Below are positions 1 to 64,000 of a DNA stretch of 64,000 bases, one piece after another. The DNA is taken from assembly GCA_963969365.1 (NCBI GenBank), contig OZ017747.1, positions 4,278,001-4,342,000 on the forward strand, written 5' to 3'. The position numbers were made by a program, and so were the translations under genes. Origin of the DNA: Asterochloris sp. CNOR1 (Eukaryota > Chlorophyta > Trebouxiophyceae > Trebouxiales > Trebouxiaceae). Position 1 is the first letter of the stretch. Each line of letters starts with the position of its first letter. Below the pieces are notes generated by a model. The model made no database searches, was not told the DNA's origin, and worked only from the letters and a program-made list of their open reading frames with translations.

Positions 1-3000
1 ATTAGCTGGCGCTGTATGTGTGCTTAGGCCACCCTTCTGTGACAGACCACCGTCTCTCTGCCGTTTCCTTGACTGGGACGGCAGTGGTGCACTGAAGCGG
101 CCAGGCCTGCTAGTCGGCTGCAGGCTGGGCGCGGCAGCCTGCTTCTGCTGCGTCTGTGCAGCGTAGTCATCCCACGTCAACACCTGCATTGCCTTGGCCA
201 TGTCAGTCTACCAGCAGCTCAGCATGCGCAGAGTCAGCCTTGCAGGCATGGGGCTTTCTCTTAGGGTTTGTTGCAGAAGTGCAGCACTCAGTGCTGGTGG
301 CTGACCAGATGTAGCTTGCAGCACAGTACAGACAATCAGGCCTGCAGGGAGCCACAAGACTACATGAAGCCCAGATGTCATCACTATGAGCCGGAAGCCC
401 AGGACCTGCGTGAAAGCTGCAATGCTGGCCAACCCCAGGTGGCTGACTTGACAGAGGGACCGTAAGACAATGTTGCTGCCTAAGCAAGCACCAGGTCTAG
501 CAGGTGCTTGCGTGCGGCACAGCACCAGCCCGTTTCTAAATGCAGAGCGTAAGTTGAACAGCGCAGCATTGAGCAGAGCAGAGCTGAAAGGTAGATCTTG
601 CCAGAGCAGAGGCACTTGCCTGCACAGGGGGGACAGAGAACTGCAGCTGCTGCAGGGCAGCTGACATCAACAGGGGCGCTCCTTCATCTGGTGCCAGCCC
701 CACAAACTCCACTAGCACCGTTGTGCTGCTGTTTGTGCACTCCCCCTTATGCAGGTGCAGCCTGAGCTGAGCCCCCTGCACCACACAGGCGGTGTTTGGA
801 AGGCTTGCGTGTTCTTTGCTTTGAGCACCACATGCTAATGCCTTTGGCACAAAACATGCATTCTGACAAAGGGTGGCGGCGTCAGTCAGGGAACTTGGGA
901 AGGCCTGGTTGTTGTTGCAGCTCCTAGGAAGTGCTGGCAGCTCTAGCCCGTTTTGCTGCGAGCAGAGAGCCAACTTTTACAGCTGCTGAGGTCTGCTGCA
1001 TGACCTGCAACTCTCAGGGACAACAGATGGAAGCTCAGCGATGCAGGGCCAGCCAGGACCTGCACGTGGGAGGTGCATTTGATGGACTGGCCTCTTGAGG
1101 TTCGAGGCAGCCTCTTGAGGTTTGGGGCAGCCTCTTGAGGTTTGAGGGAGCCTACTATAAGAGGCAGTCTGCCACTCGGTGAGCAAGCAGCAGCTGGCCT
1201 CACCAGGATTTCTTCCAGCTGCCTCTGCAGCGCCCGCGGCGAGCCTGGCGCCTGCACGCTGCCTGGCAGGTGCCCCACCCACAGGACATTGGGCCGCGCC
1301 GGTACAGGGTCAGGGCCCCACAGTGTTGCATAGGGCAAGTCACTCCTGCATCAGACGTAAGGGAACCCATTGGAAAATTCACTTGAATGTCTGACACGAC
1401 AAACAATCTGCCCAGCACAGGCCCTTCCAACCCCAGATTGTCGTCGTAGAATACGCTTGAAGCCAGCCAGCCGGCGGGAAGCGGCAGGAGTCGGAAGCAG
1501 ACAGTGCAGCAGAGGTAGTCCTGAGCCACAAAATGCTGAGGCCCCAAGTCTCCAGCAGGTATGCAGAAGGGTGTGGTCTAAACGCGCGCTCAGCGTGAGA
1601 AGGTAGCAAAACAGCTGCTCATATCTGCTTGCAGCAGATCCAGCGCCACTTCCCAAATCATCAGGCAGCCCACATGGTGCTACACACTGCTGAATTGAGG
1701 CATCTCATGAAGCCTGGCTCCAGCCAAACAAATGCAGCAAACCCAGCCCACCTGCACATGTCGAGAGGCCCTGCAGGTGCTGCCTGCTGCTCAGGTAGGG
1801 CTCCTCCTGGGTACAGCAGCAGGTCTGCCACCATTCCAGCAGCCACCTCACTAAATGCAACACAGTGACTGCCTCCCCACTTGCGCTTCTATTCTACCTG
1901 CCTGGTCACAGCAGGGACCCCAGCCCAGCTGCTGCAGTTCAGGCATCCCGTGAAGGACAGCTAGTGCAAGTCCTGCCCATCTGCTGACTTTCAGGCGACC
2001 CTTTGGGCACTGCAGACTGCTCTCACATTATCTACCAATACAGATGTGGCAAACCCAGCCCACCTGCCCACATTGAGGCGCCCCCGCAGGTGCTGCACGC
2101 TGCTCAGGTGGGGCTCCTCCTGGGCCGTGGCGGCAGGGTCGGCCAACAGGCGAGCCATCTCACTGTGCTGGACAAACATGCGCAGCATGGTGCCAAAGGC
2201 GGCTGCCGTCATGAAGGCGTCATAACCCGCCTCGTGGGCATAGCTGCTGCCAATCTCCTGCAGGGCCAAGACCTAAGGTGTAGCATATGACAGGGGGGAA
2301 AGAGCGCCCTGAATGCTGTCAAGAGGTACAGATGCAGTGGTTGCCACAGTACAGGTCACTGGCAAGAGTAGGCATCTCTGCAGTTGAGCGACGTGTGACT
2401 TAAAGTAAAGCTGGCCGCAGAGCAAGATATGAGGGCTGAAGCACGATCCCTGGGCATGGCAGCCAGCCTGAGCCTGGGTGGCCTGCTCCTTGCTGCTACT
2501 GCATCCACAAACAGCAGGCTAGGGATCAGCCAGCTTGAGTCTGCATGGCCTGCGCCTTGTCGACACAGGCACTCACAAACAGCACTCTTTGCAAGACAGC
2601 TAGCTCCAGGGTGCATGGAGTGCCCCGTTCTAAACCAGTTGCTCACAAACAGCTCTCTGGGCATGGCATCCAGCTTTAGCCAGCCCTGATGAAGACACAT
2701 ACCACAGACTCCACCCACAGACACTATCCACATACCTGTCAAAGCCCTGAGCATGGACGATCGGCGGACGGGAGCGAGCCTGCCTGACAATGCAACCCCA
2801 ACATGAGCTTCAGTGGTCAGTGCATAGGTGTGGGTGGTCATCTCATGCACAGACTGGGCACTGGTGCTCATGCCATGCCCTCTCCAGCTGAACGCTTGAT
2901 AGCATTGCGGCCCCACTGTCAGAGGCATCTGGAACCTGCACTCACGTATCTGTCAAAGCCCTGGGCGTGGACGATCTGTGGGAGGGAGTGCGCCTGCCGT

Positions 3001-6000
3001 CTGCGGGGGGGCGAGCTGCTTGCAGGCGACGACGCGGCCACTGCCTCCCGCCGCGCAGCTGTGGTGGCGTACACGTTGGCCAGCGAGGTGTCTGGGAACA
3101 CTGCCTGCGGGCGGCACACAGCAGAGCATTGCGAAACGAAACCAGACACTGACGCCAAAACGTCCTGCGACTGGATGGTGAAGCTGTGCAAGTGGGGGTT
3201 GTATCCACATTGGCATGGGCCTCTCTGGGAACACTGCCTGCAGACAGCACACAGCGCAGTACAATGACAACATGGCGACCACTGATGCCAAAATGTCCTG
3301 CGACTGGCTGGCGAAGCTGTGCACGCGGGGAAGGAATACACCTCAGCCAGGAGGGTGTCTGGGAACACTGCAGGCAGCACACAGCAGAGCGCAAACACAG
3401 CAACACAACCACACGCCCACAAGTCCTGCAACCAGCTGGTGAGGCTTGCAGATGGGGGTGGTACACACATCAGCCTGGAGCTTGTCTAGGAACACTGCCT
3501 GAAGGCAGAACTCTGGGCAGAGTGAGAGGCGCAACGCCAGCCACTGATGCCACACAGTCCTGCAGGTGGATGGTACAGCTGTGCAGATGGGCATGACAGT
3601 GCCATTCCCCAGCCCAGTTAGGTGTAGAGTGGCTCCCACCATCCTGCGACGGGCTTGCTCGCTGCCAGGTGCAGCCTGGGCGGTACCGCATGTCCAGTCA
3701 AAGTGAGACTCACTGGCAGCTGGCAAGCGAGGTGCTTGGTGTCCCAGATGCCTCCTGGGAACCAGCGCTGCACCAAAGTCTTGTAGTCCTGCCACCTGTG
3801 GGGTGCAGGGGTGACAGTCAGTGAGCGCCCATCAGCACTGCTAAAGGTGCCTGTGGGCAGGTGGCATGCAGCCACCAGTCTCTGCCAAGCTGCAGTGCTG
3901 CATGCGGCAAGCCTCAGGTATGGCACCCCGCTGTCACACCAATGAAAGTGCGACACCTGCTGGGGAAGGAGCCACGATTCCACATTGGGCAGCATGTAGC
4001 TCAGTGCAGAGGGGCAGTGCCTTCTCACTTAATGAGCATGGCTGCTGCACACAACAGCCCGCGCTGTGCCCTCCTCCAGGCATTCAGCACAAGCCAGCAT
4101 TGCCTGCATGCCCTGACAGCAAGTCATGACACCCAGGCAAGGCAGCCCTGAGTCACCTGTGGGGCAGCGGTTGCGCGAAGGACTGCAGGCTGTAGGCTAT
4201 GTCGTAGCTGAGGTTGTGCCCCACCGCGGGACGCTGGCAGTCACGCATCATCTCAAAGACCCGAGTGAAGCCTGCAGATCACAGTGGACCTGCTGTCCAT
4301 GCAAAGCACAGCAGACCTGCTGTCAGTACAGGGAACCCCTGGAGGCTGCTCTGCAGGAACACTCATCTGTGCAGTGCAGCTGCACTGGGCTTGTGCAGGA
4401 AGCAGCGCTGCATCTTGCACTGCTGTCCGTCATGTTCAAGTCAGGGAGTCAGGCAGAGCTCTGCTGAAAACAGGAATCATGCTGCCAATGCATGTGCCTG
4501 TGCATGTTTCAGAGCAAGCAGCATGGCTGTAGACATGCTGCCGCAGCAGGAGTGACCAGATGAGGCAGGCTGCTGCCTCAGCCTGGGGCCCGGGGGCATG
4601 CTGGACAGCGAGTGCCCCACCTGCAGCCTCGTGAATGCTCTGCAGGCGCCGCTGGCGCTGCTGCTCCTTGAGCGCTGTGATCTGCTCAGCGTCTGCGCGC
4701 ACCAGCTGCAGCTGCAGGCCCTCAGGCGCCTGCACTCTCTGCAGGTGCAGGTGGAAAAAGGGTAACACGCACCTAAAGTGAAACAGTTTCTGGGGACAAT
4801 GTGAAGGAGGGAGGATGAGTAGAGAGTGGGGAGGTAAGATGGATACTTCAATATAAAGAGGCCCAGCGCTCCAGGCAGCTGGGGAACTCCTTTCATCAGT
4901 GCCCCAGTGACAGGCAGCAAAGACCAGCACTGAAGCTGCACTGGCTGCATGTCTGTCGCCAGCAGCACTGCTGTCGCCAGCAGCAGCATGCTTGGCCCCT
5001 TGCAGCTGGTGTGCACTAAACCCTGGTCATCAGCAGCCAGGTGTGGGCAGCCCTCATTGGAACCAGCAGAATGCAGGCCTGCAACATGCACGCACCTCAA
5101 CGAAGAAGCCTGGCGGCTCCTGCACGCCAAACTGCGGGGTCTTGAGCTGCTGGTACTGCAGCGCGCGGTAGTATCGGTTGACTGAGGGAAGCAGCATGCT
5201 GTCATGTGGGCCCTGCGACATGACAACACAGGGGTCAATTGACGGGACAAAACAGCAATTATTTGGCCCGGCAGGTGTGCTGTTCCCAGTTTGTGGGTGG
5301 TGTCTGTCTGTGCCACTGTACACTGTGAACATGCCCACGTCACGAGTCCCTCATCACACACCGCACAGCACTAATTGCTGAGCCGGCTGGCGGGCACCGC
5401 ATCTTGCAACACCTCAGTGCGCAAGTGGCTCGCTTGCCTGCAGACAGTCACAGGCTACACTTACAGATGTGTCTTACAAAGGGGCCTTGCCTGCAGCCAG
5501 CCTGACACCTCATCTACCAGCTCCTTCACAAACTGCACATCCTCAGCTTTGGAGACAGTTATGGGCCATGAGTCCCTCTCAGCCGCCGCCTCATTAAGCT
5601 TCCTGCAGGCAACATGTCTCTCTGTCTGCGTGCTTCACACAATAACTGCCCCTCTTTGTATTGTGAAACACTGCGAACGAGGGAAGATCAGGCTTTCTGC
5701 CGCTGCTGTGAGCAGAAGCAGCTTGCCTGGCATGGGCATGTGAGTGGGAGGCCATGGCAGTGCCCTAAACAAAGCTCTGAGCCTCTAATTGATTGCTTTA
5801 CCTGTCGCGGAGGCTGGCCTGGAGGAAAGGGATGCCCTGCTTGATCATCTTGTTGAAGTCAAACCCCTGTCCGCTGAGGAACTGGATGGAGCCAGCCTGC
5901 ACATTCCAAGCTTGTGGAGATTGGACAATGCAGGCTGCCAGCTTCAGCTTGCAAACAAAGCTGTCTTGCCAGACATTGGGTGTCAAAAAGCAAGCTGGTG

Positions 6001-8885: not shown

Positions 8886-9169
8886 GGCTGCCGCTGGCTC
8901 TGAAGCTCCTGGCCCCTTGCAGCAGCCCAGACATACCCCAGGCAGCACAACCAGCATAAAGAGCCAACCCACCAGCAGCGCGTTGCTGTGTCTACACCAC
9001 ATTACATTGCACACTCCTCATGTGCTTTTTTGTGAACAGACCTCACTTGCAGTCCTGAGTCCGCGACTCATTGCAAAAGCAGGGAAAATTTTCAAGCGTC
9101 TGGTGGTCAAGACGGGGACACCTGTCAAGTTGAACAGAAACTTGTCTGAGCGGTGAGGACAAAGCAAAG

Positions 9170-13681: not shown

Positions 13682-16600
13682 TCAGCTCAAGTCAGAGTGC
13701 TGTATGAGCCAGTGCAGGCCAGGGGTGGAGCTGTTCTGTGGCCCAATGACCAGATCCAAGTTATTGCCCAGTTGAACACACCACACAGCGCCCTGAGCCT
13801 GCAGCTGAATCGCCACGTCCTGGTGCCACTGCTTGACCTCCTCGCGGTCGGGAGGCGCGTGCCCATCTGGGCCTGTGTCCGGCGCCTTTACCAAGCGCCA
13901 GGCTGAGGGGTCAGCAGCCGGCAAGCCAGCCAGCTGGCCGGGCTGCCGTAGAGCTGTCCACCGTGCCGCCAGCTCTGTGAGCGGAAGCAGGTGGGTTCCT
14001 GGGCCATGCACCCTGCAGCAGAGGCAGCAGGCAGTGGGAGTCCTACGGCTCTGCGAGCGGAAGCAGATGGCTTCCAGGGCCATGCACCCTGCAGCAGAGG
14101 CAGCAGGCAGTGGGAGTCTTACAGCTCTGCGAGCGGAAGCAGGTGGCTTCCAGGGCCATGCACCCTGCAGCAGAGGCAGCAGGCAGTGGCAGTCCTTTGC
14201 ACCTGGTGACAAACACAGCTGCAAGTATTGCTCCTGCAGAGCTGTCACAGGCAGGATGCACAGGGCGGCCATGTCGTCCAGCCTGTAGAGCAAGCCCGGT
14301 AAAACCCTGCAAGGCAGCACCAGAGAGAGCATAGCTGCTGTTGCACCTGTCCCTATGCGCAGTCTGGGCATCTTGTGACGCTCCGCAGAGGACCTGAGCC
14401 CGGACAGAACAGGCGGGAGGTCCACACCCATTACCGCCATGCCACTCACAGGGTGGGTTGGTCTGCTCTCCACTGACAGGCTGATCGTGCACAACATCAG
14501 CAGGCAATCATCGACAGCCACTCACAGGATGGGCAGGCTCAGGCCATGGAACCCATTTATTGGCATCCGCTGGGGCATGCGCACGCGCCCAGTCCAGCAG
14601 GGGATGAGCATCATCAGGAGGCAGCTGCTGAGGGCCGGCTTGGCTGACTCAGGGATGGACAGCCAGTGGCAGGCGGGCCTGCTGGGCAGGCAGATGTGGC
14701 ACGCAACCCCCCTGCGTTCTGTGCTGCTGCCTGAGTCGAGCCACACTGTCCTGGAGAAGACCTGCACAGCACAGTGATGGGAAGGCTGCACACCTTGAGT
14801 GACGTGCGACTTGCCTCCTTAGGGGTTGAGGGAAGTGCATGGGCTACACTGTCACCAAGCCTGCCTGCCCCACCATACAGAAAGCGGGGCAGCCACGAAG
14901 CCCACCAAAAATAATAAATAAAGACCCCTTGCGTTGCAGCACGGCCACTCCCACAGTCACAGCAAGTCACCAAACCCTCGCAGGGGCATGCCATCCAAAG
15001 CCACCATTGAGAGAGCTGGAGAAGCCTGGGGACTGGACCGGTCAGATTCTGCCAGCCTGCACAACTCAAACTCAGTTGCACACAGCATCAATGCCACACG
15101 GCCTGCCTGGCCTAGCGCAAGACCAGGGAACCAGCCAAGCCGACCAGTGCGGTGACTGACTCCGTACGCCGTGTCCCTGCCAGAGATCTTACGTCTTGGC
15201 TCATGACCCCGGCTCCATGCCACTGCGCGTCTCCATGCGGAAGGTCCATTTGCACAATTCCCTCAATGGTTGAGCAGGCACACCTGAGTGATCTACCCTG
15301 ATGAATCTGAGATGCAGCAGCTGCCCCTGATAGCACGATGAATCTGCTGACTTGGCCTAGCAGTGGCGCTGAACAGCTGCTGAACTTCAACGGCCCTACT
15401 TAGCTGCGCCAACACTGTCTGCCACCACTGTCATGGGTTGCATGCTGCCCTGGTGCTCACTGGCGACGGCCAGCAGCGTCATGCCGGGGCTGCTGCCCCA
15501 CCGCCTGCCAGGTTGCGCTGGTGGTGCCCAGCAGCATGCATTTCAGCTGGCAGCTGCAGGGGCTGGCCAGCAGCTGCCTGCAAACCCCTGCATATTGGCA
15601 GACCCACAACATGCTCACCTCATCACCGATGGCTTTGCTGTTGTCCTCGAGCAAATTTCCCTCGCTTGCACGGAGTGCCCACACCTGGAGCTGCTCAGCA
15701 TGTAGCCCCAGGCCTTTCAGCATGTTTTGGTGGTGCTTCAGAGGCAGCCTGCGATTTGTCTGCAGCAGGGCAGCATGCTCTGTGTTACAGTCAGCAGTAA
15801 CCTCACAATACTAGGCAACTCACAGAGCTCCCTCCGCAGGAAGTCATGGCGCTGAGCAAGGAGGCAGTCAGTGGGCAAGCACGTTCAGAGAGCTTCTGCA
15901 GTGCCCGGTCAAGTAGCAGCTGCCATGAGGCAGAGCATTGGCAGGTGGCTGCTCTTACCAAATTAATAGCAGCTATGGTCCTTGGTGGATACAGACTGAC
16001 CTAAATACTCAGCCAGTACTCTCTGCAGTGCCCACTGCCACCAAATGATGATCCAGGAGTCCCTGCCCCCACGCCAGTTGAAGCTTGCAAGTCAACATCT
16101 CTGAAGGCCATGCCTGGCAGCTGCTGCTGCTCACTCAAGGCACCAGCCCGCTGGCAAGCAGCCCACTTGTTCTGCAATGCACCTGGCCTCTGGGCGAAGG
16201 CATGCCCAACGTCAAGCCTGACAAGTGCAACAGCTTCCTGTCAGGTGGTGCCCTTGCAGCAGGCAGCACTCTTGACCTGCAGGGCCTCGGTCCCTTGCCA
16301 CTGCGAGAAGACCAATCCTGTTGAGTATAGGCCCGTACCTCACCTCAAGGCAGCAGCCTGCTGGCAGGCAGCACGCTTTTGTTGCAGGAGTTGTGCCCCT
16401 GGTCCCTGGGTACAGGCCATGCTGCTCAAGTGCAGCAGCTCACCTCTAGGTGGATCCCTTGGGGCAGGCAGCACTCCTGGCCTGTGGGCCCTCGGAGCCT
16501 GGCCATCGTGTGGGCAGCCACGGCCCTCCAGATGTCCCCTTCATGTTTCGACAAAGACCCGCACCACAACTCCTCGCCGAGGGCTGGCTGCAGGTGGCTG

Positions 16601-17109: not shown

Positions 17110-20100
17110 TCAGGCCGATGCTCCTTTGAGGCATGGGCAGTGCTTTGGCAGAGCAGCTCTGTTGAATTCTTGACGTCCACAGCTGCTCCTTTGCAACCCC
17201 TTGCATGCAAGCCCACCTTCAAGCTGTTCATCGCTGATGCCGCTCATCTGCCTGGAGCCCAGAGAGGCTGCTGGCTGCCCCACACCAGGCGCAGCCCTAG
17301 CCCCTGCCTCCCCTTGCCATGCCTGATGCGTCCACTTGCCAGAGAGGCCCTCTGCTACCTCGTGTTGTGCTTCAGAGGGCGCCTCAGGCTGGCCAGGCCC
17401 ATCACGTGCCCTGCCCTCTGCCACCTCTGGCCATGCCTGCTGCATCCCCTTGGCAGCAGGGCCCTCTGCTGCTCCTTGGTGTGTATTGGAAGGCGCTTCA
17501 GGCTGGCCAGACCTGCCATGTGCACTGCTGCCTACCCTCTCTGGCCATGCCTGCTTCAACTGCTTGCCTGAGAGGCCCTCTGCTGCCCCTTGCTGTGCTT
17601 CGGAGGGCGCTTCAGGCCCATCACGCGCACTGCCCTCGGCCTCCTCTGGCCGTGCCTGCTTCGTCTGCTTGCCAGAGGGGCCCTCTGCTGCTCCGTGATG
17701 TGCATCGAGGGGCGCTCCGAGCTGCCCAGTCCCATCCCGCTGACTCCCCTTGCTGTGTATGTTGCTGCCTGAGGAGGCCCCGCCCTGACTGTGCTGAAAG
17801 CAGTCGTTCTGGAAAATGTTGCCAAGCACCGCTCCCTTGAGGGGCTCCGCACTGCCCTGCTTGGCAGACTGCAAGGCAGAGCCTCTGCTCTGCCTGCCCT
17901 CCAAGCCGTTCTGTCGCCCCTGCTTGTGGCCCCCATCTGGGCTGCTGACTCCTGGCCTGGGGGCTCCATCGGGTTGCCTCCGCCTGTCATGCCCCTGACC
18001 GCCTCGCCTGCTGCTGTCACGCCAGCTCCTGTCCCCATCACGCTCCCTGCTCTTGTCAGACTTGTGCCGGCCACGCTCAGGAGATCGACTTCTGCGCCGC
18101 TTTCTGTCTGGACTAGCTGGCCTGCTCCCATGAGACCTGTCCCTAGACTGACCGTGGTACCGCGGGCTCAGGCTGCGCCCTTTGCGGGTGCCCCGGCGAT
18201 GCCTGTCAGGGGAGTCAAACCTGTGGCTGCGACCATTCTGCTGTTTTGACACGTGCTGGCCGCCAGACTCCCTGCACGTGCTGTGGGTGGCCGTCAGCCA
18301 ATATGCTGGTGAGCACAGACCTTGATGTAGGCAGCAGCTCCTGCAACACGTGCTAGTTCTGGTGGGGCATAGGCTCTCATGGGCCAGCATCAAACCCCCA
18401 GAGTGCAACAACGCATTGGGGGCCTGCGCTAGATGGCATGTGCAACCAAAGGACAGCACAAACCAGGGAGAATGTCCTGCTTGGCCTGGCCACGCATATG
18501 TGGACAGTCTCCAGCTGTGCCTCACCGACGTCCTGAAAAGTGTAAAGCTCAGGCTGTTCCTCATGTTTCCTGTGGCCAAGGACAGGCGTTAGCAACTGGG
18601 GCACAAGCTGGGCCCCTCACCGTCTGCCGTGGCGGCCGCGATAGCCCTCCCTGCTGTCACACCTGGCCTTGCCCTGGCGCTCTGCCCGATCCTGCTGGCT
18701 GCCAGGCCGTCCCTGTGGCGAGGTGGCAGGCCGCCCAGACCTGCCGCCACCGGGGCTGCGGCTGCGCCTCCCTGCGCTGCCTACCCTGCTGCCTCCTGAG
18801 CCCGGCCTGGAGCTTTGTTGGTTGCCCAATCCAACAGGGCTTGGGGTAGCCAAGCTGCTGCGGGACCTCAAGTGGTCAGGCTCAGTGCCGGCAGTAGCTC
18901 CCTGGATGCTGAGGCTGCGGAGACCCTCCAGAGGCGTCTCCTCATCCCGCGGGCGCTTCACGCCTCTGGGCTCCTCCTGCACATATCACAACCTGAGACA
19001 GTAGAGGCACATCTGCAGCTGTGCACAGTTTGGATCAGTGCCTGCAGCAAGTTGGCTTCGATAGGCCTGGACGCTGAAGCTGTGCAGACCCTTCAGGGTC
19101 CTCGTCTCCCCGCAACGCTTGACGCCTGTGCTGTCTCCTGCATCTACCAACATGACTTTGTGAGACAGTAGCAGCAAGCTCGCACCTGTGCACAAGCAAG
19201 CTTGCTGCTACTGTCCCAGCAAGAGCAGTGGCAGCAGCAGCCTGGTTGAAATACGCATTGGTGACTGCAGACTACTGCTAGCACACGGGGCCAAGCAATC
19301 TGACCCAGCGCCACTCACCCACACCAAAGCTGGCTTGTGAGTCCAGAGCTGGCTCAGCTGGCCAGCTGCTAGTTTGGCACAGTGCAGCACTAGCAATTAT
19401 GTGCGAAGCATCACGTAGCACGTGTTTTTTCGCACACTAGCAACAAGTTGCTTGTGTGATCTGCCCAAAAAGTACGTCCTTGCTTGTGTTGCCTCCGGCT
19501 ACAAATGGAATGCAGTTGAAACAGATCCAAACCTTAAGGCCTGCTTGCTCAGCAGCCACAATGAGTGCATCCCGCCTAACAGCTCCCAGCAGACAGAGCA
19601 ACTAGCCGCAGCTTACCTCTGCCACAGGCGGCTGTGGGCCCTCCTGCAGCTTGCGACCAGCGCGTGAACCTGCCTGCCCAGCACTCAAGGGAGTGCTCTG
19701 CTGCAGAGCTATCGTGAGAAGGACCATTGCCACCGCCAGATGCTCACCTTGGCTCGATTTGGCTTCTGGCCCTGCTGGCCCAGCGACACACCACCAACGC
19801 TTGCAAGAGCCTCTCTCTGCCTGGTTGGCGGCTGCATCTGGGCTGTGCCGAGCCGCCCACCACTCCTGAACGCCACTGCATCAGCGCAGCAGCACCGTAC
19901 ACTGAGGGCTGTGCTGTGTATGTGCGGTCTCACAGTCAGCGCGAAAGTGTAGGGGTGACCATGAGCGTTGCGAATGCATGTTCATACTCAGGCATGCTCA
20001 TGAGCACATGCATCACCTCGTTGCACTGGTTGCAACAGGCAGCAGCCCACAGGGTATGGCGCTCACCAGTTGCGTCAGACGCCTGGCCATCTGCTGCCCC

Positions 20101-22089: not shown

Positions 22090-26775
<4,686 letters not shown>

Positions 26776-39289: not shown

Positions 39290-39411
39290 GTTTCAGCATA
39301 GCACCGCATTGGCACTAGGGTTGTCCATCTGGACCTGACGACCACACTTAGGGTTTCAGCAGAGCACCGCATTGGCACTAGGGTTGTCCACCTGGACCTG
39401 ACCACCACACT
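39290..39411. repeat. 63-bp tandem duplication over the end of the beta-helix gene
   Basis: Copies at 39290-39349 and 39353-39411 share TTTCAGCA.AGCACCGCATT and GGCACTAGGGTTGTCCA. The 39353 copy holds the real last codons and stop (TGA at 39358-39356). The other lies just downstream of the stop. The 63-bp period equals 21 codons, so frame would be kept on read-through. Confidence 0.9.
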
Positions 39412-44403: not shown

Positions 44404-44487
44404 AGACCGCATGAAGCTTGAAAACATTCAGTTGTGTTAGATATACTTTTCTTAGCCATGAAACTGCATCATTGGCAGCACTTGTAT

Positions 44488-47179
44488 TCACCGCTTATTG
44501 AGTAACGCCTTAGCATCCTGCTGCTCTTTGACAAGAGAAGCACTGCTATACTTTGCAAGCAGCTCAGCTTTCTTCTTCTCAAGCACCCGCTGCTCGATTT
44601 CTTTCTGGTCTGGCAAGGGCACATAGGCCACATACTGCATTTCTGCTGGTGCCATTTGCTCGGCTGCCTTGCCACCCAGCTCTGCTAGTGCTGCCTCTTG
44701 CTGCTGTTCCTCGGCTTCCCACTTCGCAAGCGCCTGCAAGACAAAGTCAGTTCTGGGTGCTGCTCTCTGGCCTAGGTGCTGCTCAATGTAGGTAGTGCAT
44801 GCATCAACAAAGCCTTTGCAGCCTCCCACCTGCTGCCACCTGCACTCACATGGGCAGCCTCTTAAGCCTGCACTGCCTGCAATGCTAATCATGGGCGGCA
44901 ATCGACCGGGTACACGCATTTGTTCCAAAGGAAGGTCAGCAGCAAGTCTTGATTCCGCCAGACATGGCAAAGATGCTGTCAGCCACCTGCTGCGGTGCAG
45001 ACTCCTGTGCTGCTGGCACCGCTAAGACTTCCCTGTACCGCCTCTTCCTCTGGCTGCCTTCGACGCTCATGGGTCGACAGCCCTCATCTGTGAATTCAAT
45101 GCAGTGTCCCATGAAGAGCAAGGCCACAGGCCTGTCCTCAACAGAACCTGCTAGTTCCCCTTGTACCCACCTCTGCACTCATGACTTTCTCAGACTCCAA
45201 CGGTGCATTCCGTGCAGCCTCCCCATGCTCTTGCTGACCACAAGATCACCATGTCTGTCTTCCTCAGGATGCGCTAGCCCCCGTACCCACCTCTGCCCAC
45301 ATGACTTTCTCAAATGCACCAGTGAGCTCGAGGCACCCTCCCACCACTCCCCACCCAGCTCTACCGGCAGAACTTTGCAAACTCACTAGTGACCTTGAAG
45401 CACCCTCCCACGGGCCTTGCTCAATGTCAGTATGCCATCAAAATGACCTTCCCATCAGAACCTGTTTGACCCCTCCCAACTCACCTCTGCACGCATTGCT
45501 TTCTCCGCCTTGGCCTCCTCCCGCTCCAGGATCCCATCCTCATCATCCCTGAAGCCGTAATAGTCAGCATTGATCTTCTGGTGCATCTGGTGCTTGGTGC
45601 GCCGCACTTTGCGGGGAGGCTCCTTCTCGAACAGCTCCCGCACCCCGGGGAGCAGCTTGGCGGCACCAAAGTACTTGTACCCCTCGTTGCGCCCCGTACT
45701 GCTTCCCGTCTGGACCTGTACAGTCATAGGGGCAGTGCTTGAAGGTACAGGGGCCAGACACTAGGGGCTACGACACGTACTTGTACCCCTCATTGGGGCG
45801 CTGCCTGCAGGCCGTTCTGTTGCTCTTCTGAGCCTGCACAGGGTGGGCGGGCATGACAGCTGTAAGTACAGCACTTCTGCATTGTGATGCCAAGCCTCCA
45901 GGCCTGCACAGCAGTGTTCAAGGGTGTGCGAGTGGGAGCAGTGATGTGAGCAGAGGCAGTGAAGGGTTTGCCGGCAGGCCTGTCCTTTGTCTAAGATTGT
46001 GCAGCAGTGAGGGCCGGTCTGTGAGGGATGCGAGACAGAGGTGCGGTGCTTCTGAGCAGAGCAGCTGTGCATGCGATGTGCTACATCCTGTGCTCGAGGC
46101 CTGCCGCAGCAGTACGGTCCCAATTGTGGCGCAGCGCCTCACACCAGCCTTGGCCCCAGTCAAACTGGACAGCTTGAAAAACAGGCTTCTGGGCTAGAGT
46201 CAGCTCTGGTGCCTAGGGCTGAGCACCCGCCTAAAATCACCCCCTCTGCTGTCGTCTAGACCCTTGACTCCTCCTGCAGACGACCCTTCTCGACGGCAGC
46301 AACAGCACCTGGCCCAGGTGCTTCGCGGCCAAAGAAGCTGAGGGTCTGCCTCCCCAGCTTTATGCTATGAGCTCTGCTTTGATGGGGTGCAAGCCTGCCA
46401 GCTGTGGCGCAGGCCATGCAGGACTGCTGACCTCGTTGCCTTCGGCATCGGTCGTCTTGGGCGCGTTTTTTGCGTAGTCGGGGCCCCCCAGCTGAACAAT
46501 GCGACGCTCCCAGTGGCCCTTTTCTCTGATCAGCTTGTTGATCTCATCATTGAGGTCCCGTATTCTGCAGGCAGAGTGCTATGTCAGGGCGCCAGCAAAG
46601 AGCATCACTTCATCAGCAGCACCGATGTTGAGACACTGAAAGGATGCAGACACTGGACAGGCACATGGTGCACAGCATGGCAAGCCCACTCAGAGTTCTC
46701 TGTGTGGCCATCTGCGAGCAAAAGCCCTGCTGGCAGCACCACCCTAGGGAGGGGTGCACAGCACGCAAGGGCCTCCCAGACATTGTCAGGATGTGCCATA
46801 TGAGAGCCCAGCAGCAGTGCCTTCATCTGGTGCAGTAAGACGCTGCAGGCACATGATGCACAGCGCACAGGGGACCCCAGCAGCAGGGGACGACAGCCTT
46901 GCCTCCACTGGCAGGCGCAAGTTCTGCAGCTGCAAGCTGCTGCTCTGGAGCGCAGCACAAGACTCTGCACCTGTGGTCGCCAAGCCCTGCGTTCTGAATC
47001 TGCATGACCTTGCGTCCAACTTCCCGAAGGATCTGCTGCCGCCATTTGTCTGCCTCATTGAGGTCCCTGCACTCTGTTGCCAGGTATGGCCGCTTGGCTT
47101 TGGGTCCCTTGGCTTCATCTTGCTTGCCCTTGAGGAACCTGTTGAGCATAGACTGGGCCTTCTCCTCATTACGGGCCAT
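44488..47179 (-). CDS. ISY1: Pre-mRNA-splicing factor ISY1
   Basis: A component of the Prp19-associated/catalytic spliceosome complex in the nucleus. Four exons, 47179-46971, 46564-46432, 45715-45485 and 44733-44488, join in phase to 272 aa, close to the family length. The start MARNEEKAQSMLNRF is the canonical ISY1 opening. Then come WRQQILREV..KVMQIQNAGLG, RIRDLNDEINKLIREKGHWE, LGGPDY, GYKYFGAAKLLPGVRELFEK and a C-terminal coiled, basic segment (EIEQRVLEKKKAELLAKY). The intron between exons 3 and 4 contains decayed copies of the exon 3 end. The gene is divergent to the Slo channel gene, with 218 bp between ATGs. Confidence 0.95.
45159..45500. repeat. Decayed copies of the ISY1 exon 3 donor region
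   Basis: The real junction reads CACCTCTGCACGCATTGCTT, then TCTCCGCC (45481 onward). Copies in the intron: ACCCACCTCTGCACTCATGA, then CTTTCTCAG (near 45165) and ACCCACCTCTGCCCACATGA, then CTTTCTCAA (near 45286). A further weaker match lies near 45380. The spacing is about 120 bp. A copy of the acceptor side (GTACTTGTACCCCTC) also recurs at 45768, beside the original near 45671. Confidence 0.8.
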
Positions 47180-53300: not shown

Positions 53301-56300
53301 CAGGTGTCTTCCAGGGCAAGCGAGTTATCCTCAACCCTGGCAGGCGCATGCTGAGCGGCACTGAGACGGCTGTTGTGATTGGCCCCAGCCAGGAGGCGGT
53401 GCATCAGGCCATGCAGGCCCCGTTCACTCCCCCTCGGTATCCACAGGAGGGCACTCCTACAGGCACTGTCAGCCTGGTGAGGCTCAGACATGTTGTGAGG
53501 TGTTCTTATAGCATGTGTGCACATTCTCAAGCAGCAACTTGCAAGGGTCGCAGTGGTGCAGCAAGCTGAAAGGTTTACGAGCACACAGACATCGCTGTGA
53601 GGCACCCCGTGTGGGGGAGCTTAAAGCATGAGGGTGGGGCGCCTCCGGCCCATCTTGGAAGCCCCTACAATGAGTGTTTGGTGGCACCTGCGAACACCCT
53701 CGCGGTCAACAAGCACATGTGGAAGTCTTGACTTACGCATGATAGCGTATGCATGTCCAAGCATGCACACATGCAGGGTGGGGCCACCTTCCTGCTTGAG
53801 CATTGCACATAAACATTCAGAGCGTCCTGCCTGGTGCAGGATGAGGGCGTGTGCATGCTCCATCAGCCCAGAGGCACCACTACACCGGGTCTCGTCCTCC
53901 ATCTGGCTGCAGTTGTCCAGCTGGTGCAGGAGTGAGATGCGTAGATGCTCTTGTAGCACAAGGCCTCACATCGAGCGTCTTCCAGCACCCTGAGTGAGCC
54001 TGAGCCGTGCACGCTGACTTGCAGCAGTCCTTGTTGTATGCAGTCCATACATAAGCATCCCCTGCTTGCTACAGGTCCTTTTCAGGTCTCAGGGGCAGCA
54101 TCACAGAGTGCTACATGACGGCAGCAAGCTGAGAGTGCTCCATTCTGTGCAGGATGAGGAGGTGTTTGTGGATGAGCGCGGCGTCCCCTGCATCCCAACC
54201 ACACTGCTGCGGTCCGAAACAGACTCCTATGACGGGGACGATGATGATGTGCTGTGCGTGCCATATGGCCAGGATGGCCCCACTGTGGCCCCAGCAAACC
54301 CTAGCGGCAACGGGTCACAAGGTAGTGCTGGGCTGCATGGCTTTGCTGACAGGCACTGATAGCCACACACCGCCAGGTGCTGTCAAGCTGCCCAGAGCTG
54401 CCGTTCAGGATGCTGTGGGGTTGCATGATCTGCCCCAGCTTTGTTGGGCACCGCCAGCTGGCACCTCTGGCTGGCTCTGGCAAACTCTTCTGTTCCAGCT
54501 GCTCGTTATTTCTTTACGCTCTATTTACTCTGCATTCTTGCCGCAAGCTCAAGTTGTATGGCGCAATGCAGCCCACAGAGGTGCTTTCTTGGAGTCCGCT
54601 GGCGCCCTCTCTGCGCCCTGGGCCTGGAACCACATCAGAATGTGTCGTCGCTGTGCTCTCGCAGTTGACTCACCGGCGGCGGGTTCCCATGCAGAGGAGC
54701 GCTCCAGCAGCGGCCAGGCAGCGCCCGCCCCCACGCCCATCCAGCTGTCTGCAGCTGACGTCGAGCGTCTGCGGCGGCGACGAAGGCGGCGGCGCTTTGC
54801 CCAGAAGCAGGTGCGTCATGCTGAGCGCTGGCGCGTGGCATCGTGTTCTGCACCGCGTCATGCATGGCTCTGAGGACCCTTGCTCCCAGCAGGGTGCAGC
54901 ATGCTGCAGCCAGGCTTGCTGTTGGTTGCTGTTAGTTATGCACCGTAGAGCACCGCACTCAAGGCCCCTGCAGCATGCTGCTGAAAGAGCTCGCCTGCAC
55001 GAGCCACTGCTGCTGCAAGCAGTGCGCTCTGCTCCCAGGTAAACGTGGAAGCTGCCTTTCACCGGTATCCTGTTTGGGTGCACAACCCAAGGTGGGACAC
55101 AGCCTGACTGCTGGCCACAGGGAAAGTGCTCATCGCAGCCAGAATTTAAGAGCAACACATGAGCAGTCCAATGCCTGGCCTGCAGCGTGGCTCTTTTGCA
55201 GCGGGGTGGCAGCACCCAATTTATCATCGCCCTTGGCTGCCCTGATCTCAGCTGATTGAGCAGCGGTGTCTGTACTTCAGGCCTGCAATAGACTCGATAA
55301 TGGCTGCTGCACATGCCTCACCTGCAGGGCACCCTGTATGGCCACTCTGGAAAGGCAGAGTGCCCCGGGCCCTGTGTTCACAACTGGCATGAGCGACAGC
55401 CCACCCTGAAATGACACAACACATTGCAAAGCGTTTGTGCGAGGCCAATGCGTGAGCACTCTGCACCCTGCCTGCACAGCGCCTGCGCCTGGAACAGGTA
55501 CAGCACTCGGCTGGCCGGTATTGTCCAAGGACAGCACAATACTCCACTGTTGCGCCTGCAGGGCACCCGCGCCTGGGTCGGGTACAGCATTCAGCTGGCC
55601 AACTTGGTCTGAGGCCAGTGAGCAATCCACTGCTTTGCCTGCAGGGCCCACGTGCCCTGGAGGGGTACAGCACTCAGCTGGCCACATTTGCCTGGCGCAC
55701 AGGGACAGACAGCTTTGATGATGACATGGACGTCTTCGGGGAGGAGGGCAGCAGCTCCTCAGGTGAGCTTGTTGCAGCGTCATGTCTTGTTCTGACCATG
55801 CCTGTAGAAAGCATTGGCACTCACAGCAGCATATCAGACCTTCTGTATGACGTTGCACACCCAAGCACATGGGAGGGGGCCATACAGCAGCTTGCCAGGG
55901 ACTTGCAGCATTGCTCTTGGACTGGCGTTGTCTGCCCGACGCCCCACGTGAGGCCTTCCTCTCGGAGCACATCAACTTGTGTGCATGCTCCTAAGCAAAG
56001 AGACACTTTGAAAGGATGGCAGGCTGAAGTGGGCAAGGCTTGCAGCAGCTTCTTGGATGGGTTATGGCGGCTGTTGTCACGGCGCTGCAGAACCCAGCGT
56101 CGGGTCAGCAGCTTTGCAAAGAGTTTCAATGGCAGCAGGATGGGCCGCATTGCAGAAGTGGGCTGCCACTGGTGCAGCAAAGCAGACGCTCAGCCTTGAC
56201 AGACCTCAATCATGGCTGCTGCAGATGAGGAAGAGTTTGCCATGGAGCCACCAACCCCGGAGTCTGAATTTGCCCGCAGCCTCATGGATAATGCCGTCAA

Positions 56301-59300
56301 CCACTTTGACCTTAGCACGTACAAGTACGTCGTGCAATACCCAATCATCTGTGCCCATATTGTAAGCATGTCAAGCTGTGCAGCATGCCCTGTCTTTGGT
56401 GCTAGGCCTGCAGGCTTGAGACTTCTTGACCTGCCAATTTCCCTAAGGTCCACCTGTGGGAACACCTGGCAACTTGCGCGCTACAGAGCTTGCATGCTTC
56501 TATCCAAAGAGACAGGTCTCCCTTGTGTTAAAAGCCATCCTGACCTACGCTGCAGGCAGATCAGCAGTGACACTGGCAACCTGGCGTGGCACTTTGGCGA
56601 CGTCAATGGCATGCCCGGTAGCACTGCTGCCCTCAGGATGCCCGCCTTCTGGTCTGAGGACCAGCCAGCCCCAGACTCTCAGCCTTCTGTCCAGGCAAGC
56701 CATTGTGTGGTCCTAGCTCGTGCAGCCGAGCACCTCTTCAGCGGCATCTAGGAGGCTGGAGTTTGCAAGTCGCTAGACATGTGCCAAAGGATCTAGACAG
56801 CTGCCTCAGCTACAAAAATAGACTGCTCAGTCACCTAGAGTCAGTTTGGCAGCGTCTCCTCCACTGCCTAGGACATTCATGTGCTGAAACCCAATCTGTT
56901 GCTGCCTTCTGTAGATCTCTCAGACACTGGCTGCCCTGCCTGCAGCCCTCTTCTCAGGAACCCAGTCAGTCTCAGACCTCGAACCCCTCAGCTGCTCAGC
57001 CAACCCCCTCTTCCTCCACCCCTTCCCAGTCAGCTCCCCAAAGTTTGCACCAGAGAGCACTTGAGCGCGCGGCCACCAGGGCCAGCCAGAGCTTGCAGGC
57101 ATCCCACAGTGAGTAATCATGCATGGCCTGGGGCCATGGGCATTTCTGTTTTTCCAATCTAGTAAAGATGCGCACAGCGGCTGCTTGTGACCAGCCCCAG
57201 AGTTCAGGGAAGTTGGGCCTTGGCTGTACCATAGTTGACCTGCAATCAAGAACCAATCCCCGACCAAATGTCCCCCTGAAGCTGGCCGTGTGGATGTGCA
57301 GCAGTCCCAGGTGGACATCCAGGCAGTCACACCACTGACACTCATGGGTGGCCAGACGTGCTGGCCAGTGCAGAGCTGGACCCTGAGCCTCTGGTGCCGG
57401 GGCGGTCCATGACACAGGTGTGTCATGCTCGTTTCTCTGTTGCAAATAGGCCATGCTTCATCGCCTGCAACGCTCTTCTGGAGAGCATGTGTCTCTGTCT
57501 GCTTGGGGACCACTGACATTACTGTAGTCAAACATGTCACGATCTTGATTCTGTCATCTTCTGACTGGCGGCACCTGTCAATGAGCAGGGAGTTCCCAAA
57601 TGTCTGTTTGCTAAGTGTACAAGCCCCAGATGAGGCGCCCTGAGGGAGCATCAGCGTCTGTTGCGCCAATGGGACCATTGATGAAAGACCCCTTAATTCT
57701 ATTTGCAGGAATTCTTCCCTTGTGTGCAGGCTTCTCTGTGGCACTCTGCCCTTTACAGACCGCTGTCAGCTCCGCCAAGCTGTGCCATCAATGCTGGTTT
57801 TCTTGTGCGGCCCCAGGCTGGGACATCAGTATTGAATGCTCTTTGCAGCACACTTGATGTCGTGCCAGGCTGTGCCATGAACTGCTTGTGTTCTACGCAG
57901 ACCCCTCCTGGGGCACAAGGAAGTGTATAGCTGAAAGCATACCTATTCTACATGTGCCAGGCTTGGCCTCAACTTCTGCAGGCCCCCGCTGGGGCGCCCT
58001 GGCCCAGGCCATCGCACGACGAGGATAATGAGGAGCATGTGAGCGCAGGCGCCAGCAGCAGCACCACTGTGTCAGAGCTGGTGGCCATGCGTGATGCCCC
58101 TCAGGAGGTGGGTCTGCTGCACCGATGTGGTGCGGTGCAACACGTGGCAGGCCAGGCAAGGCTCTGTCTGCGCAACCTGGCTTAAGGCTGTACTGGGTAT
58201 AGCCTTTGCTTTCACCAGCCCTGTTACCTGGGCCGACACCATTATGAATGGTGGAGATCAGTGGTAGAGATCAGGTGAACGCAGATGCCGCCAGCAGCAT
58301 CGCTGTGTCTCAGCTGGTGGCCATGCTGAACTCAGCTCAGAGATAAGCAGGAGAGCTGCAGGGGCAGCTGGAGTTGGCTGCCATTTGCAGAGCGGCTTGC
58401 TGCATGGAGCTGAACGCACATGTGCAGTTGCTTGAGTGGGCCTGTGCACAGGAGCTTCGCACGTCATGTCGCATCCAGCACTACCAGCAGCACCTCTGTG
58501 TCCGAGGCTACATGTCATCTGAGAGGTGGCTCATGTTAACTCTGCTGTGCCTTGATGTTTGTCATCTTGAATCGTGCATATGTTCACTGCAAGTCAGACA
58601 GGCATCACTCCGGGTACCTGCAACAAATATGAATTTGATGGTCAAACTAATCTGCACGGCCACCCCTTGCAGGTCAAGGGCGCAGAGAAGATCAGCGGCC
58701 TGCAGAACCACGTCATCGTCTGTGGCGCAGAGGAGAGCCTGCTGAGCTTTGTGGAGCAGCTGAGACGCTGTGACCCACGGGAGACGCCTGTTGTGGTGCT
58801 GCACCCCCGCTTCCCCAAGAACTGGAGCCAGCTGCACCAGCGCTTCAAGTCCCTGTTCTATATCCAGGTGGGCAAGCAGCGCTGCTTGAACCTGTGACGC
58901 TGCAGAGACTGAGGGATGTTCTCGATCAGTTTGTGATGATCTAGGGAAGCAACTCCTTGTGTACCAGGACTGGAGCATAGGGGGATGCCTTGTAGAAGAT
59001 GCAGGGACGAGGTGCACCTGCCTTTTTCCAACAATTGGGATCAGCTGCACCAGTGCTTTAGGAGCCCTGTTCCACGCCCAGGGGGGCAGGTAGTGCTGTT
59101 CTGGGCATCGAAGGTCAAGTTGGTCAGTGGATGTGCCATGCTGGTCAGGTCCACTCAGGCGGGCAGGCAGTGGTGCTGAATTGACTTGACTTTTGTACAT
59201 TTGAGAAGCAACGTTCTAGCAATATTGTTTGCTCTATGGCAGCCTACCTTGCATTGTGGGGGTTTAAGGTAGTGCCTTGTTGATGATGCTGGGAGGACAT

Positions 59301-62300
59301 GTACCTCATGTAACTGCTACATGCGAGCAGCTGCACCACAGGTGCAAGTCTGATGTCTGTGCAGCATTGAGTAAGTGTGAAAGATGAGTGAGCATCACAG
59401 GACAACCCCCACCGGGTGCTGCAGGGCGAGCATAGCAGCGCTGTGCCGTGCTGTGCTGTGCTGTGCTGCAGAAACGTGTGGATAAGGGCATTCTTTGGGC
59501 GGGCACACAACTCTATGGTGCAATCAGGAATGAAAGAGTTTTTCTTCCCTTGCTGCAGGGTGAGCCCAGCGACAGCGCTGCACTGCGAGGGGCGCGAGCC
59601 TCCTCCGCAAGGGCGCTGGTCTTCTTGGCGCATGCCCAGCGGCCAGTGAAGGTGAGGCAGAGTCATGCATGTGTACAAGCTGCAAAGGAACAGCCAGCAC
59701 CATGGAGTGCGACATCGCTCCCTGTTCAGGATGTGGGCACATTCTTGGCTCCTTCGGTTCCTCATTGCATAGCAGCCACACTTGAACTTACTGTTAGACT
59801 GGCTGCTTCTAGGGTTGCACACTGCAAGGGCATGGGGCCTGGATTTGCACAAGGCTGAAAGATGTGGTGGACACCCAGTATGCGGCTAGAGGGGTCGTCG
59901 TATTGGGAAACGACAGCCTAGCACACCCCAGCAAGTCAGAAACGGCATGGATAGCCTGTGCTGGCCAAGCTGTCTTCTAGAGTCACTGAAGTCTTGACAC
60001 AGACGTTCAGCAGTGAAACAATCTGAGCAACACCCTCAGGTGCAACTTCTTGCAAGGTCAGGTGACTTGGCTGCTGGGGATGTGTGACCTAGAAGATTTT
60101 TCATCAGCGAGCTGGGAAGATGTCTTCACAGGCAGGCCGGGGACTTTCAGTGCTCTGCACGCCCTCCAGTCATGTCTCTGCTGGGCATTGCAGGCATGGC
60201 CTGCAGGAGAGCAGGATCATGCTGTTGGCCGCCAGCTCGATATGCTGCCGAACATGCTGACTGACTGCGGGCGTGCTGTGCACTGCTGGATGAAAGCGGG
60301 CCCTGCTGTGCACTGCTGAAGAAGCGTGCATTGCAGGAATCACAGGTCCACCAAATACACCAGCTACACTAAGCATGTGCAATGGGTGCACACCCATGTG
60401 GACTGCGGCACTGCTAAGCACTGCAGGCTGCAGATGAGGTGAAGAACAATGGGGGACCCACCTCAGGACTCTCACACCTTATCACTTGCCTCTGATGACC
60501 CACCCTGTCACTGCTGTGCTGCTGCAGGTCGCCGATGAGCTGGAGGACATGGGGGACAGCTACCTGAGCACCAGCCGCGCAGCTGTCCTGGCAGATGCTG
60601 AGGCCCTGCTGACCTGCTACGGCGTGGGCGAGTGAGCGTGCCTTGTGGTTCAAGGCATCATGTGGGGTCACGGCAGTTCTGAGAGCTTGTTGCATCAAAG
60701 GTTGCCTGGACAGTTTTGATGTGCGGGCCAAAAGGAGCAGGTCAAGGGAGTGCCTGGTTGATGCTGAGGCCCTCCTGACCTGCTATGGCATTGGCGAGTG
60801 AGCCTGCAGTGGGCATGGGACAAAGTGGCATGCCAGATGTTGTTGGGATGGGGGGACGCCATGCAATGCAAGGCATCAGTGGCATCACTGCACTTCTGAG
60901 GGCTGGGTGCCGCAAAGGTTCTGTTGCAAAGAGATGATCACGTGCGGGCCAAAGGGAGCAGGTCAAGAGAGTGTCTGGCAGATGCTGACGCTCTGCTGCC
61001 CTGCTCTGGTGCTGGCACGTGAGCCTGCATGGGCTGTGCAGATGCGCACAGAGCTGTGCTAAGGCTGTTTGGCTGCACAGTATCGACAGGGTCACGCCCA
61101 CTTAGGTGGCAGGTGCGCCGGCTGAGTGGCTTCCACGCTGGACTGCCACTCAGCCGGCTGCCTCTGCTGCTTCACACTGCCTGTGGGCACACAGGCAGTG
61201 TCCTCATTCACACAGCTTCGACCTGCTTGTGATGTCTGCAGGGAATCTGGCGCCGAGCTGCTGCATGCTGTGGTGGAGCTGTGCTTCACCTCCTCGGTCC
61301 GCTTCCTGCAGCCGGGCCTGCTGCTGAAGGTGAGGCGGGTGCAGCTGTGTGGCTCTGCTGCAGTGCTGGATCCAGAGTGGGGTGCGCTGGGCAGTGCAGT
61401 GGGTCAGTTTCCCTGGCATGGAATGGATTCCTACACTTTGTGTTTTACATTTCATATTCTGTCTCTCCAGGTGAAGTGACTGGAAAAGTAGTCCCAGCCA
61501 CCCCTGGCATCGATAGTGCTTTGCAGGATGCGCTCTGCAGGTGGCTCACCATGCAGCCTTTGCTCTGTGTTCGAGTTCTTCTTACTTCGCGTCTCATTCG
61601 AGGCAGTGTGAAAAGCTTGTCTGCAGGCCCTGGCACACAGCTCCAGGTGGGAGTCGCTGTTTGCAGCGCACCGTCAGAAACTGCATGCTGGGCTTTTCTG
61701 CTCAGTTGAGCTTGCTCAGCTGCAGATTGCTCAGCTGCAGGAGCCCTGTAAGGTCCAAATTTAAGCTTATCGAGGTCTACCTTGATGCCTGCAAGATGAT
61801 TGCGGAAGCGCAGAAGCCGCAAATTGTGCAAGGGCAGCCTCTGACCTGCACCCAAGCTGCACAGGGGCCCAGTGCTTGCCGGCTGCTGCAGGGCAACATG
61901 AGCGCTGAGGAGCTGGCCGGCGGCCTGAGTGGAGGCCCACGCAAGAGCTGGCTGATGCGCAAGCGCCAGGAGAAGGCCGCCATGAAGGAGGGCCTGGCCG
62001 AGTGGCAGGCCAATCCCTACTTCTGTGCAGGGCGAGTGACGGTGCGCTGCATGCAAGCCCTGGAGCTGGCTCTTAGGGTATGTACAGAGCAGTGAGCTAG
62101 CCAAATTGCCAGCCGACCCCTGCTTCTCCGCAATCACAATCACAATCACAGTATGTCAGTACTGAGAATCACAGCGATGGGGCCCTGGGGCTCCCTCCCA
62201 GCACCTCTGTGGTCTCAGCAGCCTGCACAGAGGGCTGCATGTCACGCATGTGTGCCGGACTCCGTCCCGCAAAATCCCCAGATGTGGGCCTGTGCGTGAG

Positions 62301-63358: not shown

Positions 63359-64000
63359 GCCCCAGTACTGGCCAGTGCAGTGCTCTGCACTATGCTTGCT
63401 GGCTTGCGCGGCGCAACTCACAGTCAGGCCTGGCTTGTGCGGCCTAGAGCGATGCCAACTGTGCGGCTTTGAATCTCTAGGGCTTGGTGTCAAGGCGCGG
63501 CCATGCATAGCTTATGCAGCCGCCAGCACGCCTAGTCTGGCTGCTTCAATGGTGGGGCACCTGGCCCCATTTGGGCCCAGGCATGCGCACAAGCGTGACC
63601 CCAAAAATGGCCGTGGGCGAGGCTGATCCCAGCCTCGCTTGCGCCAATCATGTATCAGAGTGGAGCTGCCGGAGCAAACTGTGTTGCGCAGCTCTGCACC
63701 TAGGCCATTCGTGGCGCAAGAGCGCAACACTGCTTGCCTTATTGTGTAGCTCGGCGCCTGGCTCGCGCAGCATCACAGAGATGGGTGTGTGGTGTTGCGC
63801 CATGTGCTGCACTGGTGCTGAGGTACCTGGCCTCAACAGGTGCCCACTGCAGTCAAACTTCGCGTGTGCAGGGCCTGATCTTCATGATGCCACTGCCCAC
63901 TAGTGAGAAGCAAATGCCCAACTTCTTTTGAATGAGAATGTTATGTACTCCCTGTGAGTCGCAGTCCTATTTGAGCTCGACTGCAACTGTCCGGCAGTTG
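63359..64000. other. 3' flank of the Slo gene
   Basis: It probably begins with the 3' UTR of the channel gene. Small ORFs exist on both strands, but none has support. No further gene start, RNA gene or repeat is recognised before the window ends. Confidence 0.45.

Follow-up and report, generated by a model that had tools for sequence, protein, structure and literature searches.

Decayed local copies of exon edges in introns of the green alga Asterochloris sp. CNOR1

Introns in a 64,000-bp stretch of the genome of the green alga Asterochloris sp. CNOR1 (contig OZ017747.1, C2:4278001-4342000; hereafter the window) carry decayed copies of neighboring exon edges, including donor or acceptor splice sites. 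They are genuine, each gene has its own, and the observation holds and deserves a record. The account favored here, with a probability of about 0.7, is random short local duplication in the same strand orientation, which introns tolerate and which shows best where the original is preserved by an exon. The phenomenon appears to be an ordinary mutation process at high density, akin to known kinds of duplication. With a readable copy in approximately one in nine predicted introns, intron growth becomes visible event by event, the exon serving as a slow-decaying reference.

Abundance and reality of the copies

The copies were first described in a reading of the window from its letters alone (the sequence-only reading), in seven genes: those resembling PARN, squalene epoxidase, transportin-3, ISY1, and Slo, a 13.7-kb gene, and an Arg/Ser-rich gene. 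In every one of the seven, a predicted exon edge, together with its donor or acceptor, proved to have at least one copy in an intron. Self-comparison of the window by blastn (direct repeats, offset of at most 2500 bp, cut-off 25 bits) detected 52 direct local repeats of at least 25 bits, including 23 of at least 50 bits, far above four Markov shuffles of the window, which gave 0, 0, 0, and 1 repeats at 25 bits and none of at least 35 bits. The wider sample comprised 324 kb of the 56.4-Mb, 21-contig genome (guanine-cytosine (GC) content about 58%), namely the window and 18 control stretches, which together make up the first 244 kb, and eight held-out stretches (80 kb) outside training. After overlapping repeat pairs were merged, each cluster being represented by one pair, 81 clusters were obtained, with at least one in 21 of the 27 stretches. 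Copies that differ mutually and recur across so many stretches are unlike local assembly error. The identity between copies spans 71–92% (10–90% range, 70 clusters), and local direct copying recurs at different ages, as had been proposed. Direct pairs numbered 117 and inverted pairs three in the first 244 kb. Of the 81 clusters, 80 had no counterpart reaching 40 bits at any other locus of the sample, and the PARN, Slo, and 13.9-kb arrays each occur in one place of the 56-Mb genome, in a search that skips very common words.

A detectable copy is present in 63 of the 590 predicted introns, whose median length is 466 bp versus 231 bp for introns lacking one; part of this difference arises because long introns offer more room. 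About 3% of intron bases represent one extra copy, counting detectable copies only. The earlier proposal that introns lengthen by local duplication is supported insofar as the copies add intron sequence, and not in its appeal to a junction-specific process. The window is denser in clusters than the remaining sample (28 in 64 kb versus 53 in 260 kb, P = 0.002); it lies about 127–191 kb from the end of contig C2, and a rise toward chromosome ends is possible.

Gene models were predicted ab initio with a self-trained hidden Markov model (HMM) gene finder, giving 1180 junctions in the 324 kb; an HMM version without a minimum exon length over-called tiny exons and was replaced. The splice signals of the models are sharp (donor AG/GTGAG, acceptor CTGCAG/G, the slash marking the boundary), with predicted median lengths of 120 bp for exons and 261 bp for introns. 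Among eight window proteins tested, six gave the expected Pfam match (CAF1/PARN in two pieces, squalene epoxidase, transportin-3, Isy1, and Slo/BK), one matched CHCH, and one matched nothing. The models are imperfect, with PARN split in two and one of its exons missed, and those of the 13.7-kb and Arg/Ser-rich genes rest on the gene finder.

Asymmetric decay and the visibility of exon edges

Under the favored account, short same-strand local duplications would occur frequently and with no special regard to splice sites, yielding copies mostly of 30–150 bp at offsets mostly of 70–300 bp. Given the median lengths of exons and introns above, junctions must be crossed or reached by a large proportion of such copies. 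An intronic copy may be harmless if splicing keeps the original site, and would leave behind a longer intron with a decoy exon edge. Exon-containing pairs would then outlast others because their exon copy is constrained, making old exon-edge copies conspicuous.

The decay of the copies supports this last step. Detection with the junction windows masked yielded 32 copied junctions, of which 27 were measured, the others being dropped as copies that were themselves predicted junctions or lay too close to an end. The exon side was 76–80% identical and the intron side 65–68%, compared with 60% for unrelated sequence, and the exon side was the more similar in 21 junctions and the less similar in five (Wilcoxon P = 0.001). 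Mismatches by codon position in exon-intron columns were 0.172/0.163/0.244, a pattern that fits constraint on one copy only. Since an exon copy changes slowly, an exon-containing pair stays recognizable for longer; in a simulation of tandem duplication, the detection rate was 0.467 for exon-edge and 0.302 for intron-only pairs, a factor of 1.55. The observed share of exon-involving pairs, 56 of 71 (0.79), exceeded the 0.65 expected from uniform placement (P = 0.017) and was close to the 0.74 expected once this factor was applied (P = 0.50). The surplus of exon-involving over intron-only pairs is consistent with a copy that decays more slowly in the exon. Such a visibility bias is a general trap, as fossils of exon edges outlast intron-only ones and can give a false impression that junctions are targeted.

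Shape of the copies and simulated duplication

The description of the copies as tandem stands for the 16 of 81 clusters that are adjacent (gap of at most 10 bp), whereas most are not head-to-tail, the median gap being 57 bp. Offsets have a median of 131 bp and a 10–90% range of 72–291 bp, which overlaps the earlier estimate of 60–220 bp for the unit size and is wider than it. Identical 10-mers compared between intron positions peak at offsets of 60–100 bp and come near background beyond 250–400 bp. That units are mostly not multiples of three (43 of 70) is about the chance proportion.

Alignments were partial in 57 of the 81 clusters, and similarity past their ends was at or near the background of 0.403 (0.469 in non-exon flanks, 0.408 in exon flanks). 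Among 53 spaced pairs (gap 35–400 bp), the spacer held a residual second copy in 16 at P < 0.05, against 5.2 expected, and none in 37, a pattern that erosion by deletion could mimic. The gap showed no significant dependence on identity (Spearman 0.20, P = 0.14, 54 clusters). Exon-involving, intron, and intergenic clusters numbered 56, 15, and 5 of 76 (0.74:0.20:0.07). A forward simulation of strict tandem duplication with decay (exon rate 0.3) gave shares of 0.52:0.35:0.14 and 8–18% partial alignments, and the addition of large deletions gave 0.51–0.57:0.30–0.36:0.12–0.13 and 24–32%. Some events resemble true tandem duplications that have since eroded, and others short copies set down some way off in the same orientation; this is the least settled part of the account. 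The copies may stem from replication slippage or unequal sister exchange and later erosion, or from break repair in which sequence is copied in the same strand orientation.

Alternative explanations

Several results weigh against random duplication seen through asymmetric decay. Pure tandem duplication with decay was rejected as the whole account, its simulated partial alignments (8–32%) falling short of the 57 of 81 observed and its exon-involving share being too small. The visibility factor was simulated for tandem pairs, and that it also applies to spaced pairs and to exon-interior ones is assumed. Inside local alignments, divergence is no smaller in the exon part (0.193) than in the intron part (0.188), and it is lower in the exon part in eight of 26 pairs, perhaps because local alignments stop where similarity falls. 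Among clusters of at least 85% identity in the first 244 kb, a junction lies in eight of 22 versus 4.4 expected (P = 0.047), and in the control stretches alone the figure is 20 of 42 clusters versus 10.8. Intergenic or partly intergenic clusters are scarce, five of 81 versus 16.6 expected (P = 0.0005), a deficit not predicted by a gene-blind process unless intergenic DNA is constrained or mis-annotated.

This deficit speaks in favor of copying linked to transcription or to introns and confined to transcribed, intron-bearing DNA, which would explain both the scarcity of intergenic repeats and the shared strand. Intergenic 10-mer matches lie far below intronic ones at offsets of 60–250 bp, and the direct orientation of nearly all pairs agrees with it as well. 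However, the predicted intergenic DNA makes up 16% of the sample and rests on ab initio annotation, intron-only clusters are also low (15 of 81 versus 20.5 expected), and the instability of hairpins may account for the lack of inverted local repeats. Copying of this kind is unlikely, and it is doubtful that a strand-preserving process of high rate, scarce in intergenic DNA, rebuilds introns from their own and exon sequence. If true, decoy splice sites and candidates for new exons would arise throughout the genome.

Duplication targeted to junctions, with its start or end set by microhomology of the acceptor motif CTGCAG/G or the donor motif GTGAG or by R-loops at exon-intron borders, would make introns grow specifically through the copying of exon edges; the sequence-only reading had suggested lengthening by local tandem duplication across exon-intron junctions. 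Junctions do lie inside copies 1.5-fold more often than under uniform placement (38 of 81 clusters versus 25.2, P = 0.0005), and the clusters of at least 85% identity point the same way. Yet pairs of exon with intron that hold no internal junction are raised similarly (18 of 81 versus 13.2 expected; exon-only clusters, five of 81 versus 5.5). The clean comparison for the junction share lies among exon-involving pairs, whose visibility is similar, and there junctions account for 38 of 56 (0.68) versus 0.66 expected (P = 0.78); the share was likewise as expected at looser and stricter detection and under two other gene-model settings (P from 0.47 to 0.89). Near-complete repeats (alignment at least 70% of the offset, n = 24) gave no significant junction excess (15 versus 12.3, P = 0.17), and the held-out 80 kb gave none (four of 11 clusters versus 3.8 expected). 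As exon-interior copies are raised similarly and the junction share is as expected, the junction itself is not an apparent hot spot: the proposal of a junction hot spot is not supported, and targeting is quite unlikely. The genome-wide comparison with random positions that had been proposed, a version of which was carried out here on 324 kb, returned this 1.5-fold junction excess over uniform placement and, among exon-involving pairs, a junction share as placement predicts.

Copied splice sites and predicted exons

A further reading is that the copies are functional alternative exon edges under selection, serving alternative splicing or mutually exclusive exons. In unmasked detection, the splice dinucleotide was identical in the copy for 33 of 36 acceptors and 16 of 21 donors in 244 kb (above the mean squared identity of 0.64 and 0.62), counting copies that were not themselves predicted junctions and including within-array pairs that are not independent. 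Among copied sites, 19 of 26 acceptors and six of 22 donors scored at least 5, and median scores of copied versus original sites were 7.3 versus 8.1 for acceptors and 3.6 versus 6.0 for donors, figures that share an ascertainment bias. The Slo copy at 60753-60807 keeps, by eye, an open and similar reading frame. With junctions masked in detection, however, the dinucleotide was retained in six of ten acceptors and five of 17 donors, several registers being uncertain. Selection as the cause of acceptor retention was rejected on this drop, which indicates that the raw excess is ascertainment, and the codon pattern is that of one constrained copy.

The gene finder took two copies for exons, one in PARN and one in ISY1. 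With exon 3714-3795 in place of the copy-derived PARN exon, the score against solved PARN rose from 150.9 to 158.2 bits, and omitting the copy-derived ISY1 exon raised the best match from 244.4 to 247.0 bits, while two weaker ISY1 matches fell slightly. Homology therefore favors leaving both out, weakly for ISY1, and a functional role of the copies is very unlikely. The suggestion that copies supply decoy sites or material for new exons is supported in part, in that some copied sites look strong and two copies were called as exons, whereas homology disfavors both exons. Copies good enough to mislead a gene finder are a practical warning for the annotation of such genomes.

Dispersed elements (an introner, a miniature inverted-repeat transposable element (MITE), or another transposon) inserting beside exon edges, or an assembly artefact, are extremely unlikely: a repeated unit that lies in an intron and carries splice sites does recall an introner at first glance, but similar units at other loci were not found for 80 of the 81 clusters within the sample or for the three arrays compared with the whole genome, and both the spread of identities and the number of stretches with clusters speak against such sources.

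Rogers-type intron gain was rejected as a general account, since the donor edge matches the intron's own acceptor edge at the intron's length in one of 590 introns (in stretch L008, a 24-bp match). One candidate for a real exon duplication was seen at L012:6184-6987, where two copies of a unit of about 404 bp share 82% identity; each spans a predicted exon, 153 bp long in one and 147 bp in the other (both multiples of 3), together with about 250 bp of intron.

Relation to known duplication systems

The "doublets" of Thomas et al. in 2004 are reportedly short paired duplications of the same polarity, adjacent or spaced, in several eukaryotes. The present copies resemble them in being short and local, with same-strand pairs far above chance and private to their locus; they differ in that diverged rather than exact matches were sought and that offsets peak at 60–150 bp, with no peak seen at about 1 kb.

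Pace et al. (2009; PMC2671141), which refers to the earlier doublets, describes repair-mediated duplications in human by capture of proximal DNA, with 824 of 1,136 duplicons within 5 kb, a proximal median of 147 bp, and sometimes exon or splice-site sequence. It also gives four of 824 donors with partial exon/intron sequence and an ACSBG2 exon case in the opposite orientation. Short, closely linked copies, some with exon or splice-site sequence, are common to both systems. In contrast to those four donors, exon edges are common among the algal copies, and at least one human case is of opposite orientation whereas direct pairs prevail here, although inverted copies could escape notice if hairpins are lost. 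Both PMC4974935 and PMC3443670 give tandem duplication as a route to new introns, the former with a duplication that crosses an exon-intron boundary. The boundary-crossing case in potato RNA-dependent RNA polymerase (RdRp) likewise copies splice signals into a gene; here, by contrast, an existing intron is lengthened and no new intron has been found as far as tested. No description of this effect in a green alga was found among the literature matches listed, which is not proof of absence.

Features in the window

The copies in the window are listed gene by gene in Table 1. Read by eye, the acceptor edge GCAG/GCAGTGTTCCCAGA of exon 2946-3104 recurs three times upstream in the PARN intron, in decayed form, and the ISY1 donor edge is copied twice downstream as GCAGAG/GT. 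The Slo-like segment from 60580 to 61042 also holds a nested duplication of 60651-60814 to 60869-61034.

Table 1. Local copies and associated predicted exons in the window.
Gene and feature	Position	Strand	Remarks
PARN-like, intronic array, about 3.8 copies, period 133	3089..3591	-	about 80% of intron 3105-3713; boundaries by eye
PARN, exon missed by gene finder	3714..3795	-	read by eye (..WQDYKTLVQRWFPGGIWDTKHLACQLP); homology gain
PARN, decoy 91-bp exon called inside array	3469..3559	-	gene finder; not favored by homology
PARN-like, 1724-1811 an intronic copy of 2035-2124 (donor edge 2064)	1724..2124	-	83% identical, gap 223 bp
PARN-like, 2729-2784 an intronic copy of 2943-2998 (donor edge 2946)	2729..2998	-	82% identical
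13.7-kb gene, three 76-bp units including predicted acceptor 14013	13970..14196	-	about 95% identical; ab initio gene model
Arg/Ser-rich gene, 16130-16300 matches 16339-16505, donor edge 16444	16130..16505	-	69% identical
Arg/Ser-rich gene, 114-bp array, 3.9 copies	17294..17739	-	much in predicted coding sequence
Arg/Ser-rich gene, acceptor edge 18977 copied at 19066-19194	18901..19194	-	
Squalene epoxidase, donor edge 24872 copied at 24984-25098; exon segment 24799-24848 copied at 25084-25133	24799..25133	+	
Squalene epoxidase, exon segment 25905-25939 copied at 26000-26034	25905..26034	+	83% identical
Squalene epoxidase, upstream intronic copy of acceptor edge 26292	26186..26335	+	
Transportin-3-like, acceptor edge 28526 copied at 28659-28750	28504..28750	-	81% identical; 59-bp spacer without detectable second copy
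Transportin-3-like, three 58-bp units including donor edge 32318	32181..32355	-	
Transportin-3-like, acceptor edge 33850 copied at 33979-34013	33835..34013	-	
Transportin-3-like, 38-bp exon segment 36419-36456 copied at 36288-36325	36288..36456	-	92% identical
ISY1, donor edge 45485 and two downstream intronic copies at about 45289 and 45171	45139..45505	-	both with intact GT
ISY1, 63-bp exon called by gene finder, ending at copy 45171	45171-45233	-	weakly disfavored by homology
Slo-like, upstream copies (84 bp apart) of acceptor edge 55645	55470..55684	+	
Slo-like, exon segment 58033-58090 copied at 58269-58326	58033..58326	+	81% identical
Slo-like, donor edge 58868 copied at 59028-59098	58815..59098	+	GT of copy now GG
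Slo-like, donor edge 60632 and two spaced copies, 60753-60807 and 60975-61028	60580..61042	+	

A 63-bp tandem pair, 94% identical, lies at window positions 39286-39411, at the end of a predicted minus-strand gene. Outside the window, long open frames resembling reverse transcriptase by eye were noted at L002:5398-6501, L013:9274-9924, and L014:72-425, and the putative reverse transcriptase frames in L002 and L014 begin with the same peptide. Stretch L014, whose GC content of 0.523 is the lowest of the first 18 stretches, also carries an open frame of about 800 codons and unusual composition (L014:3309-5702), which by eye appears foreign or virus-like.

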